Both the position numbers and the translations under genes were made by a program. Shown here piece by piece: positions 4,222-10,791 of a stretch of DNA of 18,636 bases; the first letter of the stretch is position 1; each line of letters starts with the position of its first letter. The notes under the pieces were generated by a model. It did not search any database. It was not told where the DNA came from and saw nothing but the letters and a program-made list of their open reading frames with translations. Source of the DNA: an uncultured Pseudoxanthomonas sp. (GTDB taxonomy: Bacteria; Pseudomonadota; Gammaproteobacteria; Xanthomonadales; Xanthomonadaceae). Location: contig CAMPIO010000064.1 of assembly GCA_946886405.1 (NCBI GenBank), positions 1-18,636 on the forward strand, given 5' to 3'.

Positions 4222-5457
4222 ATGCCGAATACCCTGCTGACCCTGTCGCCGTCGTTCCTGCGCACGCTGTGCAATCTGCGCTGGGTGGCGATCGTGGGCC
4301 AGGCGGTGACCGTACTGGTGGCGTTGGGCCTGCTCGGCATCGACCTGCCGCGCTGGCCGCTGTGGGGCGGCATCGGCGCGCTGGCGCTGTTCAACGTCTA
4401 CGCCACCTGGCGCAGCCGCCGGCCCGGCGAGGAAACCCCGGCCGAAGCCTTCGCCCACATGCTGGTGGACGTGGCGGTGCTGTCGTGGCTGGTGGCATGG
4501 AGCGGCGGCATCGGCAACCCGTTCAGCTCGATGTTCCTGCTGCTGATCGCGGTCTCGGCGCTGGCGCTGCCGTTGCGCTGGGTGCTGGCGACCGGCGTGG
4601 CCTGCCTGCTGGGCTACGTCCTGACCGCGGTGTTCGGCCGCCCGCTGCCGCACCTGCATGGCGACAACTTCAACGTGCACCTGTGGGGCATGGCGGTGAA
4701 CTTCGTGCTGTCGGCCGGCGTGGTGCTGTACTTCTCCACGCGCCTGGTCGCTGCCCTGCGCCTGCGCGAACAGGAACTCGCACGGCTGCGCGAGCGCTTC
4801 GCGCGCAACGAAGGCATCGTCGCCCTCGCCACGCACGCCGCCGCCGTGGCGCACGAACTGAATACCCCGTTGGCGACCATGACGCTGCTGACCGAGGACA
4901 TCCGCGAACACGCGTCCGAACCCGACATCCGCGAGGACGCCGGCACCATGCGCCAGCTGATCGACGTGTGCCGCGACCGCGTGCGCGCGCTCGCTGCCTC
5001 CGCCGACCTGGGCGTGCACCAGCGCGTGAACCTGGATGACGTGGTGCAGCGCTGGCGGCTGATCCGCCCGACGGTGGAACTGCAGCGCACCGGCGCGCTG
5101 CCGCCGTGGCTGGCAACGGATGCGTCGACCGGCCACCTGCTGCAAGCCCTTCTGAACAACGCCGCCGACGCCAGCCGCCAGGCCGGTTCGCAGCGCGTGG
5201 ACCTGGACCTGCGCTGCGAAGGCGAGGAACTGGTCGGCACCGTGCGCGACTACGGCAACGGCTTCCACGAAGCGTTGCCGTTCCAGTCCGAACAGCTCTT
5301 CCGCACCAGCAAGCCCGAGGGCATGGGCGTGGGCCTGGCCCTGTCGCACGCCACCATCGAACGACTGGGTGGACGCATGACCATGCGCGCGGTGCCGCCG
5401 AAAGGCGTGCAGGTGCAGTTCCGCCTGCCGGTGGCGGGCAACGACGAAACTCCCTGA
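4222..5457 (+). CDS. regB: RegB/PrrB/ActS/RoxS-type redox sensor histidine kinase
   Basis: This 411-aa protein has an N-terminal block of about six membrane segments (residues 20-175), a DHp helix and an ATPase domain. The phosphorylated His is H211 in the H-box ([16 protein letters not shown]). The N-box is LLNNAADAS (310-318), and the glycine boxes are DYGNGF (343-348) and GMGVGLAL (367-374). Two features place it in the RegB family rather than among generic kinases: the GGIGNPF heptad (95-101), matching the GGxxNPF ubiquinone-responsive motif, and C250 in the helix after the H-box (IDVCRDRV), at the place of the redox-active Cys of RegB. RegB kinases sense aerobic respiratory/redox state and phosphorylate RegA. 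The cognate regulator follows after 13 nt. It is divergent from ispG, whose product is an iron-sulfur enzyme. Confidence 0.92.
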
Positions 5458-5470
5458 TGCGAGGCATACG

Positions 5471-6022
5471 ATGAAAGGCCTGCTGGTCGACGACGACGAA
5501 CTCTACGCACGCACCCTGCAGCGCAGTCTGGCGCGCAAGGGCATCGAGACCGAGATCGCACTGGATGCCGCCAGCGCGCTGGCGAGGGCGCGCGAGTACC
5601 AGCCCGACTTCGCGCTGGTCGACCTGAAGCTGGGCGCCGACTCCGGCCTGACCCTGATCGAGCCGTTGCGCGCGCTGCGCGCCGACATGCAGATCCTGCT
5701 GGTGACGGGTTACGCGAGCGTGGCCACCGCAGTCGAATCGATCAAGCGTGGCGCCGACGACTACCTGCCGAAACCGGCAACGGTGCCGACCATCCTGCGT
5801 GCGCTGGGACTGGAAGCACCTGCGGTCGCAGAGGACACCAGCGCCACCGATGACACCATGACGCCGTTGAGCCGGCTGGAGTGGGAACACATCCAGCAGG
5901 CGCTGGCCGAAACCGAAGGCAACATCTCGGCCGCCGCGCGCCTGCTCGGCATGCACCGGCGCTCACTGCAGCGCAAGCTGGCGAAGCGCCCCGGCCCCGA
6001 ACGGCGCTGGATCGACGAATAG
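5471..6022 (+). CDS. regA: RegA/PrrA/ActR-type response regulator
   Basis: This 183-aa protein has a receiver domain (residues 1-115) with the acidic pocket D7-D9, the phospho-acceptor D51 (VDLKLG), T79 and K101 (LPKP). A linker and a C-terminal Fis-type helix-turn-helix follow (about 137-175, [20 protein letters not shown]). This domain pair and the short length are typical of the RegA/ActR/PrrA/RoxR group, which acts as a global redox-responsive transcription factor. A GCGAGG Shine-Dalgarno-like sequence precedes the ATG, and the gap to the kinase gene is only 13 nt, so the two form an operon. The 3' end meets the convergent membrane-protein gene with only 3 nt between the stop codons, leaving no room for a terminator outside coding sequence. 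Confidence 0.93.
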
Positions 6023-6025
6023 CCT

Positions 6026-6700
6026 TCAGCGGGATGGATCGCGGTCCGGATCCATCGCCATCCCGGCCCCCATGCCGAGACCTGCGCCAGCGCTCATGCC
6101 ACCTGCACCACCACCACCGCGCGCGCCGTCGCCACGGCCTTCGCCCTTGCCGCCTTCGCCCTTCCCTTTCGCCGCGACCGGTCGTGCCGGGCCTTGGCGG
6201 GGAATGTCGAGTCCGGCCGGGATCGGTTCCAGATCCAGCACGCTGCGGATGAAGTCGCGCAGGGACACCACCAGCGCATGCGTGTGGATGGGACGCCCCG
6301 CTGCCAGATCGGTGGCGGCCTGCGCCGCCAGCCGCACCTGATCGTCGGTACCCAACAGGATGATGTCCGACAGCGCGGCTTCGACCGCATCGCGGATACG
6401 CCGCGCGCGGTCGCTGCCGTCATCGCCGGCATCGAGGCCGCCCTCGCGCGCCCGCTGGCGCAGCTCGCGCAGATGGGTGGGATCGACATCGAGGTCGCCG
6501 GTGAACGAGCCGCCCAGCGTCTTGTAGGCGGCGATCAGCGTGCGCAGGCGCTCGTTGATCTGGCGATTCTCGCGCGCCCGCCGTTCCTGCACCGTCTGCA
6601 TCACCACCAGGCGGATGCCGACGCCGATCAGCGTGATCAGCGCCAGCCCGCCCAGCGTGGTCAGCAGGCCCTGCCATGAACTGAAATCGAGACCGCGCAT
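6026..6700 (-). CDS. Conserved one-helix membrane protein with glycine-rich tail, function unknown
   Basis: This is a 224-aa protein. One membrane segment (about residues 11-35, LTTLGGLALITLIGVGIRLVV) is followed by a helical, charged cytoplasmic region. That region includes RENRQINERLRTLIAAYKTLGGSF (about 43-66, quoted here as the piece ending AYKTLGGSF), a stretch I have seen in unnamed proteobacterial proteins. The C-terminal 45 residues are low complexity, first Gly/Lys/Glu and then Gly/Ala/Met-rich, ending in Asp/Arg. No catalytic motif is visible. The ATG at 6700 is supported by a GGAGGA Shine-Dalgarno 8 nt upstream. It lies 65 bp downstream of the TonB-receptor gene on the same strand and could be read through from it. 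The tail coding sequence is compositionally extreme but in frame. Confidence 0.8.
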   Translation of the reverse strand: MRGLDFSSWQGLLTTLGGLALITLIGVGIRLVVMQTVQERRARENRQINERLRTLIAAYKTLGGSFTGDLDVDPTHLRELRQRAREGGLDAGDDGSDRARRIRDAVEAALSDIILLGTDDQVRLAAQAATDLAAGRPIHTHALVVSLRDFIRSVLDLEPIPAGLDIPRQGPARPVAAKGKGEGGKGEGRGDGARGGGGAGGMSAGAGLGMGAGMAMDPDRDPSR

Positions 6701-6765: not shown

Positions 6766-8967
6766 TCAGAAGGCCTTGCGCAGCACGACCTCCCAACTGC
6801 GCGGATCGCCCAGATAGGCCATCGTGCTGCCCAGCGCGTAGACCACGTGCGTTCGGTCGCCGAGGTTGCGTCCGCGCAGGCTCAGCGACGCGGTCTCGTT
6901 CCACTTGAAGCCGACATGCGCCCCCCATGTGGTGTAGCCGGCGGTGGACAGCGTATTGGCGGCGTTGGCGTAACGCGAGGAGACACCGCGCACGTCCACG
7001 CCAGCGGACCAGCGTGGCGTGAAGGTGTAGTCCAGCCACAGGTTGCCGACGCGCGACGGCGTGTTGGTCGGCCGGTTGCCGGCGCGCGATACGGATACGC
7101 CACCGACGTTCTCGTAGAAATCGTCGAGCGTGGCGTCGACCCAGGCCAGGTTGCCTTCCATGCTCAACGCCTCGACGGGACGCCACCCGAAGGTCGTTTC
7201 CACGCCGCGCGACGACTGCTGGCCCACCGGCAAGGTCTGCCCCGGATTGGCGGGATCGGTGATGGCGAGGTTGCGGCGCACGATGCGGTACGCCGCCAGC
7301 GTGGCGAAACTGCGCGCATCGCGCGACTGGAACTTCGCGCCGATCTCGCCCTGGCCGCCGGTGGTCAGGTCGAAGTCGCGGAGCGTCGCGAAGTTCGCGG
7401 TGCTGAGGATGCCGGCGGGTGGATCGGCCGCCGTGCTGTACTGCGCGTAGACACTTGCCTGCGGGGTGATGGCCCAGTTCAACGCCACGCGTCCCGTCGT
7501 GGGTGAGTAATCGCGCTTGAAGCGTGCGGGTTGGGTGGCACTCACCGCGCGATGGTTGACCACGTCCAGCACGATGCGGTCATGGCGCAGCCCGGTCAGC
7601 AGCGAGAGCGTCGGCGTCAGTTCGGTCAGGTTTTCCAGATAGACCGCCTGCGTGTGCAGCCGGTTCGTGCGGTCGCGCGTGTAGACGATCTCGGTGCCTG
7701 GCACGTCGAGGAAGCGGCCGGGTGTCACGGCGTCGAGCGGTACGGTGTCCACCGTGGCCGACAGCGACAACGGGAAGCGTGTCTGCCGGTTGTAGCTGAT
7801 GTCCAGCCCGGTCGCCCATTGCGTCGGCAGCCCGAACAACTCGCCGTCGTGGCTCCATTCCAGCCGGTTGCCGTAGACCTTCTGGTCGTGCCGCTGCAGC
7901 AGCGTGCCGGAGCGGACGACGTCATCGTTGCTGGCCGTCAGGCGGTAGCTTTCGACGTTGCGGTAGTCGCGCAGCGCGTCGTAGTGGTAGACCGTGTTGC
8001 GCACGGTATCGCGTTCACCCGGCGTCCACTCGAGCAGCGACCGTGCCCAGCGCACGTCCTGCCCGTAGTAACCGTCGGCCACGTTGTAGTTGCGGCCCAC
8101 GGTATCCGGCAGCACCGACAGACGTCCGCTCGCCGGCTGGCGCACCGGCGTTCCCCAGTAGGGGCGATGACTGTCTTCCTGCTGGCTTTCGATGGCCAGC
8201 GTGTGGCGCAGCGTCGGCGCCAGTTGCACCAGCCACGACGCCGCCAGCGTGGACGCCTCGCGCTGCTGCCCGTCTACCCAGGTCTCTGCGTCGCGCGTGC
8301 TCGCATCCACGCGCAATGCCTGCCGCGCGTCATCGGCCCCCATGCGCAGGTTGGCGCCCATCGCCAACGTGCCATCGCGGAACGAGCCCCAGGACGCTTG
8401 CACGGCCGCTTCATCACGATCCAGCCGCGCCAGGCGGGTGACGTAGTTGATCGTGCCGCCGACCGCACCCGCGCCATACAGGAAGCTCGACGGACCGCCG
8501 ATGGCTTCCACCCGCTCGTACTGCCATGCATCCACCGGTCGCGCGGCGATGCTGGCGTACTGCACGTCGATGCCATTGAACAATTGGGTGATCTGGCTGC
8601 CGGAGAAGCCGCGGTAGGTCACTGCGTTGCCATTGCCGGGCGGCGACGCGACGGTCAGGCCGGGAATGCCGGCCAGCGCTTCCTGCGTGGTGCGCACGCC
8701 GCGTGCGTCGAGTGCATCTCGGTCGATCACGGTGACCGAGGCCGGCGTCTCCATGACGCTCAACGACAAGCGCGTACCGGTGCCGGCAGCCTGTTCGAGG
8801 TCGGCGTGGTGGCCTGTGACTTCGACGGCGTCGAGCTGGATGGCGCGTGAGCCATCAGGCAACGCGACAGGTTCGGCGGCAAGCACAACAAGAGGAAAAG
8901 ACAAGGCCGCGGCAACGGCCACGGACAGGCGCGACGCACGCGGCGTCGCCCGGGAAATCACGGACAT
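6766..8967 (-). CDS. TonB-dependent outer-membrane receptor (siderophore-receptor-like; copper-linked by context)
   Basis: This is a 733-aa receptor. A signal peptide (about residues 1-31, ending VVLAAEP) precedes a TonB-box-type LDAVEVTG (45-52). Then come the plug domain (TPASVTVIDRDALDARG, GIPGLTV, YRGFSG, VEAIGGPSSFLYGAGAVGGTINYV in two parts, about 75-180) and a 22-strand barrel ending in Phe (WEVVLRKAF). Such receptors import metal chelates across the outer membrane using the TonB-ExbBD motor. The plug resembles siderophore receptors, but the gene lies 62 nt downstream of a DUF2946 ORF, a pairing known from copper-repressed receptor operons. I therefore infer a copper-complex or other metal-chelate substrate. 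The ATG at 8967 has GGAG five nt upstream; the longer frame from a TTG at 8985 is unlikely. Confidence 0.93.
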   Translation of the reverse strand: MSVISRATPRASRLSVAVAAALSFPLVVLAAEPVALPDGSRAIQLDAVEVTGHHADLEQAAGTGTRLSLSVMETPASVTVIDRDALDARGVRTTQEALAGIPGLTVASPPGNGNAVTYRGFSGSQITQLFNGIDVQYASIAARPVDAWQYERVEAIGGPSSFLYGAGAVGGTINYVTRLARLDRDEAAVQASWGSFRDGTLAMGANLRMGADDARQALRVDASTRDAETWVDGQQREASTLAASWLVQLAPTLRHTLAIESQQEDSHRPYWGTPVRQPASGRLSVLPDTVGRNYNVADGYYGQDVRWARSLLEWTPGERDTVRNTVYHYDALRDYRNVESYRLTASNDDVVRSGTLLQRHDQKVYGNRLEWSHDGELFGLPTQWATGLDISYNRQTRFPLSLSATVDTVPLDAVTPGRFLDVPGTEIVYTRDRTNRLHTQAVYLENLTELTPTLSLLTGLRHDRIVLDVVNHRAVSATQPARFKRDYSPTTGRVALNWAITPQASVYAQYSTAADPPAGILSTANFATLRDFDLTTGGQGEIGAKFQSRDARSFATLAAYRIVRRNLAITDPANPGQTLPVGQQSSRGVETTFGWRPVEALSMEGNLAWVDATLDDFYENVGGVSVSRAGNRPTNTPSRVGNLWLDYTFTPRWSAGVDVRGVSSRYANAANTLSTAGYTTWGAHVGFKWNETASLSLRGRNLGDRTHVVYALGSTMAYLGDPRSWEVVLRKAF

Positions 8968-8972
8968 TGAAA

Positions 8973-8976
8973 CTCC
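8973..8976 (-). promoter_or_regulatory. Shine-Dalgarno of the TonB receptor, decides the start
   Basis: Minus-strand GGAG lies 5 nt before the ATG at 8967. It falls inside the reading frame that would begin at the TTG at 8985, which argues for the shorter protein. Confidence 0.65.
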
Positions 8977-8980
8977 AAAG

Positions 8981-9027
8981 CACAAGGACGCGGCGCGCGG
9001 GCCGCACGGTCAATCAGGGGGCTTGTG
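8981..9027 (-). promoter_or_regulatory. Intercistronic RNA structure between the DUF2946 ORF and the receptor
   Basis: On the minus strand CACAAG (9027-9022) can pair with CTTGTG (8986-8981). Inside this outer stem a second hairpin forms from 9007-9001 and 8994-8988, with five Watson-Crick pairs, two G-U pairs and a 6-nt loop. The structure starts 3 nt after the DUF2946 stop and ends 4 nt before the receptor's GGAG. The first part after the stop is C-rich (CAAGCCCCCTG). It could control translation or transcript continuation into the receptor gene. Confidence 0.4.
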
Positions 9028-9029
9028 GT

Positions 9030-9428
9030 TCAGAGCAGAACGGGCGGTCCTTGTCCGCCGAGGCCACGCAGTCGCAGGCGTCTGGCGCGGGGAAACAGGA
9101 CGGTACGAGCGACGATGCTTGCGGGGAGTCGCGGGAACAGCAGCGCGACGCAGAGCAGCAGCAATGGCAGCACAGCGGCCAGCACGCAGTAAGCGCAGTC
9201 GGTCCCCATCGGCATGCCTGACGGCGATGGCGACTTTTCCACCGGCGACTCGACACGGGTATCGACCCACGTAATGCCGTCGGTGGTGCACAACTCGGTC
9301 CAGCCCGCCATCACCTGGGTGCCGGCACTGGCCGTCCAGCGCGTGACCGACGGCGCCAATACCATCAGCAAGGCCGCCAGCAGGGCCAGTTGCAACATCG
9401 GGCGGAGGAAGGCGGACGAGCGGATCAC
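9030..9428 (-). CDS. DUF2946 (PF11162-type) small membrane protein, candidate CruR copper-responsive leader ORF
   Basis: This is a 132-aa protein. Hydrophobic helix 1 spans about residues 9-27. A periplasmic-type segment follows with C47 (ELCTTDG), a Pro/Ser linker and [10 protein letters not shown] (72-81), giving a CxxC at C78/C81. Helix 2 spans 82-99, then comes a basic tail ending [12 protein letters not shown]. This is the DUF2946 layout. Members named CruR in Bordetella are upstream ORFs: the nascent chain binds copper through CxxC and relieves translation arrest at a C-terminal RAPP motif, which lets Rho stop transcription before a TonB-receptor gene. Here the tail has QGPP (126-129), so the Pro-Pro is kept but the preceding residues differ. 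The receptor gene follows after 62 nt. The start is GTG 9428, with no Shine-Dalgarno and TAGAAT 6 nt upstream. The family call is good, the CruR role is inference. Confidence 0.75.
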
Positions 9429-9434
9429 CGTGCG

Positions 9435-9464
9435 ATTCTATGCGGGACGGGCCGTCGACGTCAG
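9435..9464 (-). promoter_or_regulatory. Candidate promoter of the DUF2946-receptor operon
   Basis: On the minus strand a -35-like CTGACG (9464-9459, four of six matches to TTGACA) and a -10 TAGAAT (9440-9435) are 18 bp apart. The -10 is followed by 6 nt (CGCACG) and the GTG at 9428, so the message would be leaderless. The promoter would lie in the 64-bp gap after the lipoprotein gene and make DUF2946 the first ORF of its transcript. Confidence 0.5.
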
Positions 9465-9492: not shown

Positions 9493-10791
9493 TCAGGGGA
9501 ATGCGACGCGCGCACCTTGCAGCCGTGGCGCATCGCCGTCCACATCGGTCCACGCCAGCCACGCGGCGTCGCCATGCCATTGCAGCCGCGGAATCCCGCT
9601 CGCCCGCCCGCGTGTCGACAACGTCGCGACCTCGATGCGCTGGGCAGAAGCCCAAGCGTCGTCATAGCGGCCGAGCATCAGCGTCTGCCGCTCGTCCGGT
9701 GTCTGTTCCAGCCAGCTCACCAGCAGATGGCCGTCACCACGCGCGAGACCCAGGCGACCCAGTACCTGCGTGCCTTTTGCCAGCGTCACCGGCGCACCGA
9801 ACGTGTCGCCCGCATCCCCGGAACGCGCGGCACGCAGCTCCGGCATGCCGCCGGCTTCCGTGTACCAGACCACCCAGACCGTGCGGCCCTCGGCGACCAC
9901 TACCGGTCCGTTGACCGGGCATCCGGCAATCTGCCAACCATCCGCATGCACGTCGCGCGGTGGCGTCCAACGTTCGCCATCGAAGCGCACCAGGCGCGTA
10001 TCGCGGACCTCGCCTTCACCGCGCCCGCGATAGACGACCACGACGCCGCGATCCGTGACGGCGGAAGAAGTGGTGCAGCAATCGCACGTGGACATGTCCA
10101 ATGGCCACTCGCCTTGTTGCGCCGCCTGCGCGTCGTACGTCGCAGCGCGCAGCATCATCGCCGCGCCACCGGCATGGTCGTGCCCGCCATCGTCATGACC
10201 CGCGTGCCCGGAGGCCGCCTTCTGACGGCTGTCCAGCCAGGCGATCCCGAGTCGGTCACGCGTCTGTGGCCAGAACGTCACGAAACCGTGGTCCCCCGGC
10301 GTACCGGCGGGATGCACCAGCTGTGGCGCGCTCCATGTCGCACCGTCATCATCGGAACGAACGAGGTCGATGCCGTAATCCATGCGCGACGGCCCGGTGC
10401 TGCGCAACCAGTGCGCCCACAACGAACCGTCGGGCAAAGCGTAGACGTGCGGCGTGTCGGCCCAGTTGACGAACCATGTCGTGCCCTCCGCGATCGTGCG
10501 TGGTCCGTCCCAGTCTTTCGCCCGGGGCGACAGGCGGCTGAAGCGCAGGCGGTGACCGTCTTCGCCCAACGGCTCCACCCAGCTCAGCAGCAGGGAACCC
10601 TCGGGTGTCGTGACCAGGTCGGGCTGCGCCGCACCGGTAGGCGATGGCAAGGCCACGGCTTCAACCACCGGCAGGGACGTGACGGCGGAAGAGGCGGGGG
10701 GCTCCGCGGGTGTACAGGCCGCCAGCGCAACGGTCAGGAGCAGCACGGGTCTGGACCAGCGGGACAAGGGCATGCGGACGCTTCCGGCCAT
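9493..10791 (-). CDS. Sialidase-like beta-propeller lipoprotein with His/Asp and Cys metal-type clusters
   Basis: This is a 432-aa protein with a lipoprotein signal ([10 protein letters not shown], lipidated Cys26). The body carries repeated blade-like strands and Asp-box motifs SxDxGxT[WF], namely SDDDGATW (146-153) and SGDAGDTF (324-331), as in the sialidase/BNR six-blade fold. No sialidase Arg triad is evident, so enzymatic sialidase activity is not implied. Two insertions look metal-binding: a loop [14 protein letters not shown] (196-209, His 196, 199, 204 and 206) and a Cys cluster STCDCC (234-239), with another Cys at 291. Its stop is 64 nt upstream of the DUF2946 gene on the same strand. 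The likely role is a membrane-anchored periplasmic or surface protein in metal handling, which is inferred. The start is ATG 10791 (GGGG 7 nt upstream); ATG 10773 also leaves a complete lipoprotein signal. Confidence 0.8.

Follow-up and report, generated by a model that had tools for sequence, protein, structure and literature searches.

A DUF2946 leader ORF predicted to control translation of a CrtA-type copper receptor gene in Pseudoxanthomonas

An 18,636-nucleotide stretch of DNA from an uncultured Pseudoxanthomonas sp. (contig CAMPIO010000064.1 of assembly GCA_946886405.1, hereafter the window) contains on its minus strand a short open reading frame (ORF) of the DUF2946 family, followed by a gene coding for a TonB-dependent receptor. 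The reading that we consider probable is that this ORF is a copper-responsive nascent-chain switch that acts on translation of a copper importer by unmasking the Shine-Dalgarno (SD) sequence of the importer gene, with Rho at most secondary. Specifically, transcription would start at the GTG codon of the leader ORF, which would then be translated from a leaderless mRNA. Under copper scarcity the ribosome would arrest at the Gln-Gly-Pro-Pro (QGPP) motif near the leader C-terminus, holding Pro128 in its P site and Pro129 in its A site, and its leading edge would cover the last Leu codon plus the stop codon, which belong to an anti-SD sequence, GCUCUGAA. With the anti-SD covered, the receptor SD would be free and the importer would be made. 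Copper binding to C78 and C81, by then presumably just outside the tunnel, would end the arrest; once the ribosome has left, a helix would close over the SD and shut the importer off, and Rho may afterwards end the untranslated transcript. What the sequence supports is the DUF2946 family assignment, the CrtA-type receptor, the motif and its spacing, the geometry of the -10 element and start codon, an RNA element, and a predicted pairing of the SD; we infer arrest at QGPP, its relief by copper, leaderless initiation and SD unmasking in cells.

The leader ORF and the receptor gene that follows it

The minus-strand gene order is a BNR_2 protein gene, the DUF2946 leader ORF and the receptor gene (Table 1). 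The leader scores 55.8 bits against PF11162 (cut-off 23.7, E 9.7e-15), so its DUF2946 match is not due to chance, and this bears out the family assignment proposed in the initial annotation. Other features named there are likewise present: the CxxC (DCAYC) ahead of helix 2, which is C78/C81 with a hydrophobic stretch after it as judged by eye; the C-terminal QGPPVLL, which is codons 126-129 followed by V-L-L-stop; and a receptor that starts (ATG, 8967-8965) 62 nt past the leader stop, a gap spanning 9029-8968. The CxxC and QGPP are spaced by 44 residues, and residues 11-26 near the N-terminus are hydrophobic, by eye only. The nearest named homologues of the leader are from Pseudoxanthomonas. 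In alignment A1, which has 21 rows (the window and 20 of the 66 matches of a first protein search, selected blind to their tails and with no motif criterion), C78, C81, Q126, G127, P128 and P129 are all invariant.

Table 1. Coordinates of the leader, the RNA element and the adjacent genes in the window
Feature	Position	Strand	Remarks
Structured RNA element, from the last codons of the leader ORF to the receptor SD	8970..9041	-	Covariance model R1
Anti-SD GCUCUGAA	9029..9036	-	Codon 131 third base, last Leu codon CUC, stop UGA, A
Outer helix, 5' arm CACAAG	9022..9027	-	
Inner GC-rich hairpin GCGGC...GCCGC	8990..9005	-	
Outer helix, 3' arm CUUGUG	8981..8986	-	
Receptor SD GGAG	8973..8976	-	Predicted to pair with the anti-SD
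TonB-dependent receptor, CrtA (copper) type	6766..8967	-	733 aa; Pfam Plug and TonB_dep_Rec_b-barrel
DUF2946 (CruR-type) leader ORF	9030..9428	-	GTG start, 132 aa, TGA stop 9032-9030; PF11162
CxxC (DCAYC; C78-A-Y-C81)	9186..9197	-	Presumed copper site; Cys pair invariant in A1
QGPP (codons 126-129)	9042..9053	-	Presumed arrest core; then V-L-L-stop
-10 promoter element TAGAAT	9435..9440	-	12 nt before GTG; predicted leaderless mRNA
BNR_2 protein	9493..10791	-	Lipobox-like LAAC; upstream of the leader

A sequence search aligned the receptor with PDB entries 9RVQ and 9RVX at 682.6 bits over residues 32-732. These structures are of CrtA of B. pertussis, a copper importer formerly called BfrG, for which the conserved site residues are Y130, W265, E337, Q356, H358 and R395 (PMC12914433). 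All six are identical in the window receptor in an alignment read by eye. By sequence the receptor is thus a CrtA-type copper importer, and because it matches CrtA and keeps the site residues, the link of this locus to copper is more than one of gene neighbourhood. A PepSY_TM gene adjoins the CrtA receptor in >75% of loci (PMC12914433); none is next to the window receptor, and the ORF that follows it on the same strand (6026-6700) matches no Pfam family above the cut-off.

Relatives of the leader were collected with a filter that asked for CxxC, a spacing of 42-47 residues, and then R or Q, A or G, and two prolines no more than 14 residues from the end. This gave 132 matches, of which 113 are distinct (the window included), and the filter itself makes CxxC, PP and R/Q invariant in this survey set. 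A less strict scan with 146 candidates gave no other motif among the ORFs judged to be DUF2946, though forms lacking PP would escape detection by it. The loci are mostly the best-scoring matches of a longer list, and weak relatives are under-sampled.

An RNA element over the receptor Shine-Dalgarno sequence

The gap between the two genes is predicted to form a nested structure in which CACAAG begins 2 nt past the leader stop, CUUGUG ends 4 nt ahead of the SD, and a GC-rich hairpin lies between them. Across the 50 loci of alignment A2, 81.7% of the alignment cells in the outer and inner helices are paired, versus 25.0-57.7% after sliding by 1-3 columns. Two-sided changes occur in 9 of the 13 helix pairs; this count is reached by 33 of 500 shuffles and the covariation score by none of 500, this scoring of a named structure being a weaker test than unguided folding because the structure was derived from the same sequences. 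In the predicted fold of the window from codon 129 on, the outer helix is extended such that GCUCUGAA pairs with UUUGGAGU, which contains the SD. When the RNA up to the stop codon is left out, the SD is predicted to be held in a helix of only three pairs, and omission of the part that an arrested ribosome would cover is predicted to free the SD from the anti-SD. Pairing of the QGPP codons with the 3' arm was also considered and dropped: the fold from codon 129, which leaves most of the QGPP codons outside, uses the arm past the stop, and the Q codon alternates between CAA and CAG, which counts against such a pairing.

A covariance model of the element, R1, was trained on many of the loci that it matches, those in G058, G138 and G082 and both loci of G092 being outside the training set. 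It scores 77.3 bits in the window, which is itself within the training set. R1 has 26 matches in 25 of 149 genomes of the family, and 25 of these 26 abut a DUF2946 ORF (24 by coordinate comparison and one by reading locus L193). The exception, G036:C4:170707-170781 (L194), has an E value of 5e-4 and no DUF2946 ORF found alongside; it may be a chance match or another use of the element. Most genomes of the family are unmatched, including some that carry DUF2946 (G017 for example), and of the 143 class genomes searched the centre genome alone has a match. Rfam gave no match up to E 1 between positions 6000 and 11000 of the window, so the element is not recognised by that library. No long U run is seen by eye past the hairpin, where no scan for intrinsic terminators was made.

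We next asked how widely the SD is predicted to pair with the end of the leader. Of the 113 survey rows, 96 passed a rule for the presence of an SD and 74 were left after filters. For these 74, pairing of the SD with the last two codons plus the stop has a mean probability of 0.81, versus 0.39 for synonymous shuffles. The predicted pairing exceeds 0.5 in 61 of the 74, comprising all 17 loci of the Q type and 44 of 57 of the R type, and it does so in 1 of 21 other gene pairs with similar gaps in the fetched DNA, a control that uses rough gene calls. Codon choice points in the same direction. Among the 92 of 113 rows that have a three-residue tail, the last codon is always CTC where it encodes Leu (43 of 43) and TCC where it encodes Ser (20 of 20), and it is GCC in 19 of 20 cases of Ala; within the ORFs the same codons are used at 12%, 16% and 34%, respectively. 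In Xanthomonas-like loci (L037, L057) the last codon is UCC, giving CUCC opposite GGAG with UGA facing GAU and possible tandem G-A pairs; the predicted SD pairing of this variant is weaker in several loci, such as L044 and L052.

Ribosomes have a leading edge near +12 to +17, and this footprint together with known tunnel lengths sets the geometry used here. If Pro128 occupies the P site, positions +12 to +14 are taken up by the last codon and +15 to +17 by the stop, a covering geometry that agrees with the three residues separating PP from the stop. A ribosome arrested at QGPP would thus cover the anti-SD, which is why SD unmasking is favoured. The placement follows CruR of B. pertussis, for which arrest in vitro puts the third residue of the motif in the P site (PMC12992588). 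When a ribosome was modelled as a block on pairing, a block to +11 caused no change in Q loci, and one to +14 raised the mean probability that the SD is unpaired from 0.02 to 0.28 (from 0.002 to 0.39 in the window). With 90 nt of upstream context, opening the start region costs 8.9 kcal/mol on average over 89 loci and 7.0 kcal/mol when an arrested ribosome is present, the cost being lower in 73% of the loci. The sign of copper control is transferred from B. pertussis by homology. There, Roy et al. found that changes of PP and of RA switch the receptor off and that changing CC to SS leaves it nearly copper-blind (PMC9426467).

Several results weigh against SD unmasking by an arrested ribosome. 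Unguided RNAalifold on alignment A2 gave four pairs, none of them compensated, a shortfall that we think comes from misalignment of loops of uneven length. The fold of a 90-nt segment of the window has a z score of only -1.61, and 12 of 200 shuffles fold equally well. Predicted SD pairing is not above 0.5 in 13 of the 74 loci, and the shuffle means exceed 0.5 in 30 of the 74. A set of 230 control ORFs also favours last codons that end in C (CTC 8/14, TCC 6/11, GCC 20/34); the excess in the leaders persists over this background (82/83 versus 34/59, Fisher 1.3e-10, with related rows treated as independent). The SD/anti-SD pairs barely covary, as most columns of this helix hardly vary, and alignment A4 was selected for CTC, so support for the SD helix consists of codon choice and folding. 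Over all loci the modelled gain in unpaired SD is moderate (mean 0.05 to 0.27, above 0.3 in 24 of 74), and the opening cost does not drop in L001, L004 and L037. A terminating ribosome also gives 7.0 kcal/mol, so arrest would need to act by dwell time. Finally, in L009-L011 the leader before the receptor carries RGPP with a two-residue tail and has no good outer helix, so the proposed scheme is not universal.

Two other explanations bear on these same data. The first is that the locus works as in B. pertussis, where arrest shields the transcript from Rho and relief by copper leads to Rho termination before or early in the receptor gene, the helix being secondary. This scheme has been demonstrated in B. 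pertussis (PMC9426467), and the ORF tail and gap of the window are rich in C over G (C/G 1.30-1.68 in 78-nt windows at offsets 234 to 390). We nevertheless consider it unlikely here, as the gap is 62 nt rather than 162 and a conserved RNA element predicted to pair with the SD would be superfluous under Rho control alone. The initial annotation had proposed the same mechanism as in Bordetella; what holds of this is a DUF2946 ORF with canonical spacing before a CrtA-type receptor, and what appears not to carry over is Rho acting in a long gap, given the short gap and the predicted SD-pairing RNA. Less likely still is plain translational coupling, in which the helix would be opened by every ribosome arriving at the leader stop, with neither QGPP arrest nor copper involved. 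In favour of such coupling, terminating and arrested ribosomes are about equally effective at relieving the helix in the model. It would leave unexplained, however, the conserved CxxC and QGPP, the narrow spacing between them and the three-residue distance from PP to the stop.

The QGPP motif and the start of the leader

In the first protein search (66 matches, one being the window's own protein), QGPP occurs within the last 14 residues of 62, with HGPP and QGSP once each and unrelated tails in the remaining two. The stretch RGLGxQGPP has synonymous variation at all nine codons in 18 distinct QGPP loci, and its residues are fixed in these loci save for one G-to-S change at x. Fixed residues combined with synonymously varying codons argue for selection on the peptide. 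The Pro-Pro tail is thus conserved among the orthologues, as an alignment suggested by the initial annotation was meant to find out, and decay of QGPP is not supported by these sequences.

Closer comparison with other Xanthomonadaceae leaders indicates that Gln is the less common form. A second protein search and alignment A3 were built from the survey set (7994 candidates scored; the best 120 of 137 matches), and among the matches listed at least 57 are further ones, of which the printed ends read RGPP in 55, QAPP in one and an incomplete tail in one. In the Xanthomonadaceae survey set itself, 92 of 113 distinct rows are of the R type and 21 of the Q type. The Q rows are Pseudoxanthomonas loci with QGPP (G304 included) plus three genomes from outside the genus with QAPP (L111, L114, L125); R-type rows also occur within Pseudoxanthomonas, for example L036 and L107. 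After removal of identical ends, an Arg five residues before the motif is present in all 20 Q rows and in 26 of the 91 R rows, and PP lies three residues from the stop in 21 of 21 Q rows and 73 of 92 R rows. On a tree of the 113 rows, which has few columns and many open forks, no fewer than two changes are required to account for the Q label. Among 47 loci sampled more widely, from the class and phylum, RAPP is found in 31, RGPP in three (one of them, L140, in a genome of the family) and Q in none, the rest being other or unreadable (seven lack a readable ORF, and some of nine rows without PP are spurious ORFs). As near relatives are mostly R and the wider sample has no Q, Q looks like a local change from R. 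The initial annotation had set QGPP against RAPP; QGPP is indeed present, and with near relatives that mostly have RGPP the local change is one of a single residue.

Whether this change is compatible with arrest can be judged by analogy with other arrest peptides. The motif Arg is irreplaceable in ApcA, ApdA and ApdP (PMC12992588), so Q may fail here, a further point against arrest at QGPP; in RAPP complexes Arg can form five direct hydrogen bonds with 23S rRNA (PMC10951233). A QAPP peptide, the upstream ORF uA_RQH_Myxococcales, arrests both E. coli and B. subtilis ribosomes with an arrested fraction >0.9, and its Q86A change lowers arrest; QGPP was among the motifs searched in two proteomes in the same work, in which most of 23 RAPP-like sequences tested gave no arrest (PMC10987492). 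Arrest at QGPP is, from these precedents, plausible but unproven. The suggestion that the motif tolerates more change than known is only partly right, and Q at this position is a modest novelty, since QAPP already arrests in an unrelated upstream ORF. That the R-to-Q change has instead lost or weakened arrest, leaving either a relic or a weak pause that EF-P relieves, and a receptor whose expression is tuned or constitutive, a possibility raised in the initial annotation, finds a basis in the irreplaceable Arg, its rRNA contacts and the many RAPP-like sequences that fail to arrest, yet is very improbable given the conserved Q and RGLGxQGPP stretch with its synonymous variation, the anti-SD pairing predicted in all 17 Q loci and the arrest by QAPP elsewhere.

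The two forms of the motif also occur together. In L009-L011 (Pseudoxanthomonas z9, beigongshangi and the RX3 bin) the order is a DUF2946 ORF with QGPP, the BNR gene, a DUF2946 ORF with RGPP, and the receptor gene. Because Q and R forms are present in one cell, a ribosome-wide reason for Q is disfavoured. In G009 and G010 an R1 match also follows the QGPP leader, so the BNR gene of these genomes appears to be under the same control, and as it has its own QGPP leader in L009-L011, BNR_2 may be a copper-regulated protein. It has a His-rich loop and a CxCC (C236, C238, C239) that is invariant in 13 aligned rows including the window, and no relative in PDB at E 0.01. In the window the BNR_2 gene is on the same strand and ends 64 nt upstream of the leader GTG. 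Elsewhere in the window, on the plus strand (4222-6022), a histidine kinase whose membrane part is PilS-like adjoins a Fis-type response regulator, and their transcription runs toward the receptor gene.

The leader also appears to have its own start of transcription. A promoter-like sequence had been noted ahead of it together with a probable lack of a 5' leader, and both points were upheld by a comparison of 111 loci, the latter as a prediction. We scored hexamers of the form TA..T with at least four matches to TATAAT by their distance to in-frame ATG or GTG candidates. The hexamer lies exactly 12 nt before a start candidate in 56 of the 111 loci, as TAGAAT does in the window (9440-9435), and 13 nt before it in eight; distances of 14, 15 and 16 nt occur in three, eight and four loci, and other distances within 6-45 nt have between 0 and 4 loci each, except for a second peak at 42 and 43 nt (34 and 13 loci), which is read as the same -10 box measured from a later in-frame start. 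An A at -9, which was not fixed by the search, is found in 52 of the 56 loci. A -10 box at such a distance sets the mRNA 5' end on the start codon, and the leader ORF is predicted to be translated from a leaderless mRNA in Xanthomonadaceae. SD-like 4-mers are found upstream of none of 66 leaderless starts; we give this little weight because a large part of the scanned stretch is taken up by the -10 box. GTCGC recurs about 29-31 nt upstream of the -10 box (at 29 nt in 11 and at 31 nt in seven of 56 rows) and could be a -35 variant or an operator.

Relation to known leader systems

The closest known system is CruR (bp2923) of B. pertussis, the leader of the cruR-crtA(bfrG)-bp2921 operon, with which the window ORF shares DUF2946, CxxC, an xxPP motif three residues from the end and a CrtA-type receptor as the next gene. 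The spacing from CxxC to the motif is also close, at 44 residues in the window versus 45 in CruR. The motif itself is QGPP rather than the RAPP of canonical CruR (Roy et al. 2022), so we file the window ORF as a CruR-type variant and not as a canonical CruR. Other differences are a start that is predicted to be leaderless, versus a transcription start site 45 bp upstream of the B. pertussis gene (PMC9426467), a 62-nt gap with a predicted SD-pairing RNA versus one of 162 bp with Rho termination, and the absence of the PepSY_TM gene found at the CruR locus. CruR is also the first gene of its operon with a long gap after it, whereas the window leader, for which a promoter of its own is predicted, has a short gap and a same-strand BNR gene that ends 64 nt before it.

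CutF of the Rhodobacter capsulatus cutFOG operon resembles the window in having a DUF2946 leader and a stem-loop that hides the SD of the next gene (PMC9973294), a stem-loop that is predicted in the window. The two differ in the copper site (CxxxC in CutF versus CxxC), in the regulated gene, which is cutO, an oxidase gene turned on by copper, versus an importer gene in the window, and in the position of the anti-SD, which is described as part of a stem-loop between the genes in CutF and is the leader's last codon plus stop in the window (PMC9973294). Divergent DUF2946 paralogues near position 1500 of each of L026-L030 have HCCGH in place of CxxC, a LLRPPI tail and a following gene that is TolC-like by eye; they are reminiscent of CzcI, a DUF2946-like leader of an efflux system that lacks the Pro motif (PMC9973294).

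QGPP also fits the formula (R/Q/H)(A/G/D)(P/G/S)(P/G) near the C-terminus of the RQH arrest peptides, encoded by upstream ORFs of secA and secDF (PMC10987492). These precede secA/secDF and the window leader precedes a CrtA-type receptor; the RQH peptides have no overall sequence similarity even to each other according to the authors, and the available part of that article describes no metal site in them (PMC10987492). SecM-type leaders share the principle that arrest near the ORF end opens an RNA stem and enhances translation of the following gene (PMC9973294), but they sense secretion and do so with a different arrest sequence. Among the records listed by a literature search, with most subscription journals and bioRxiv outside its scope, there was no title or abstract on a leaderless CruR, a DUF2946 last-codon anti-SD or a CruR with QGPP.

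Taken as a whole, we regard as evenly poised the broader proposal that in Xanthomonadaceae a leaderless leader carries its own lock, the last codon and stop being an anti-SD that lies under the xGPP-arrested ribosome, and that the arrest core has changed from R to RGLGxQ(G/A)PP in much of Pseudoxanthomonas (as QGPP) and in three outside genomes (as QAPP), with both forms side by side in three genomes as if arrest strength were tuned. If true, this would join two copper leader systems, namely CruR sensing, in which copper turns an importer off, and CutF-like SD unmasking, in which copper turns an oxidase on, with the anti-SD placed inside the leader's last codon. The locus would also be a case for arrest on a leaderless mRNA, and the RNA element could be used to find further such loci. 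Finally, it would provide a natural R-to-Q change in an arrest core that can be compared with RGPP across orthologues as well as within one genome, a comparison that would test how fixed the Arg of RAPP-type motifs is.

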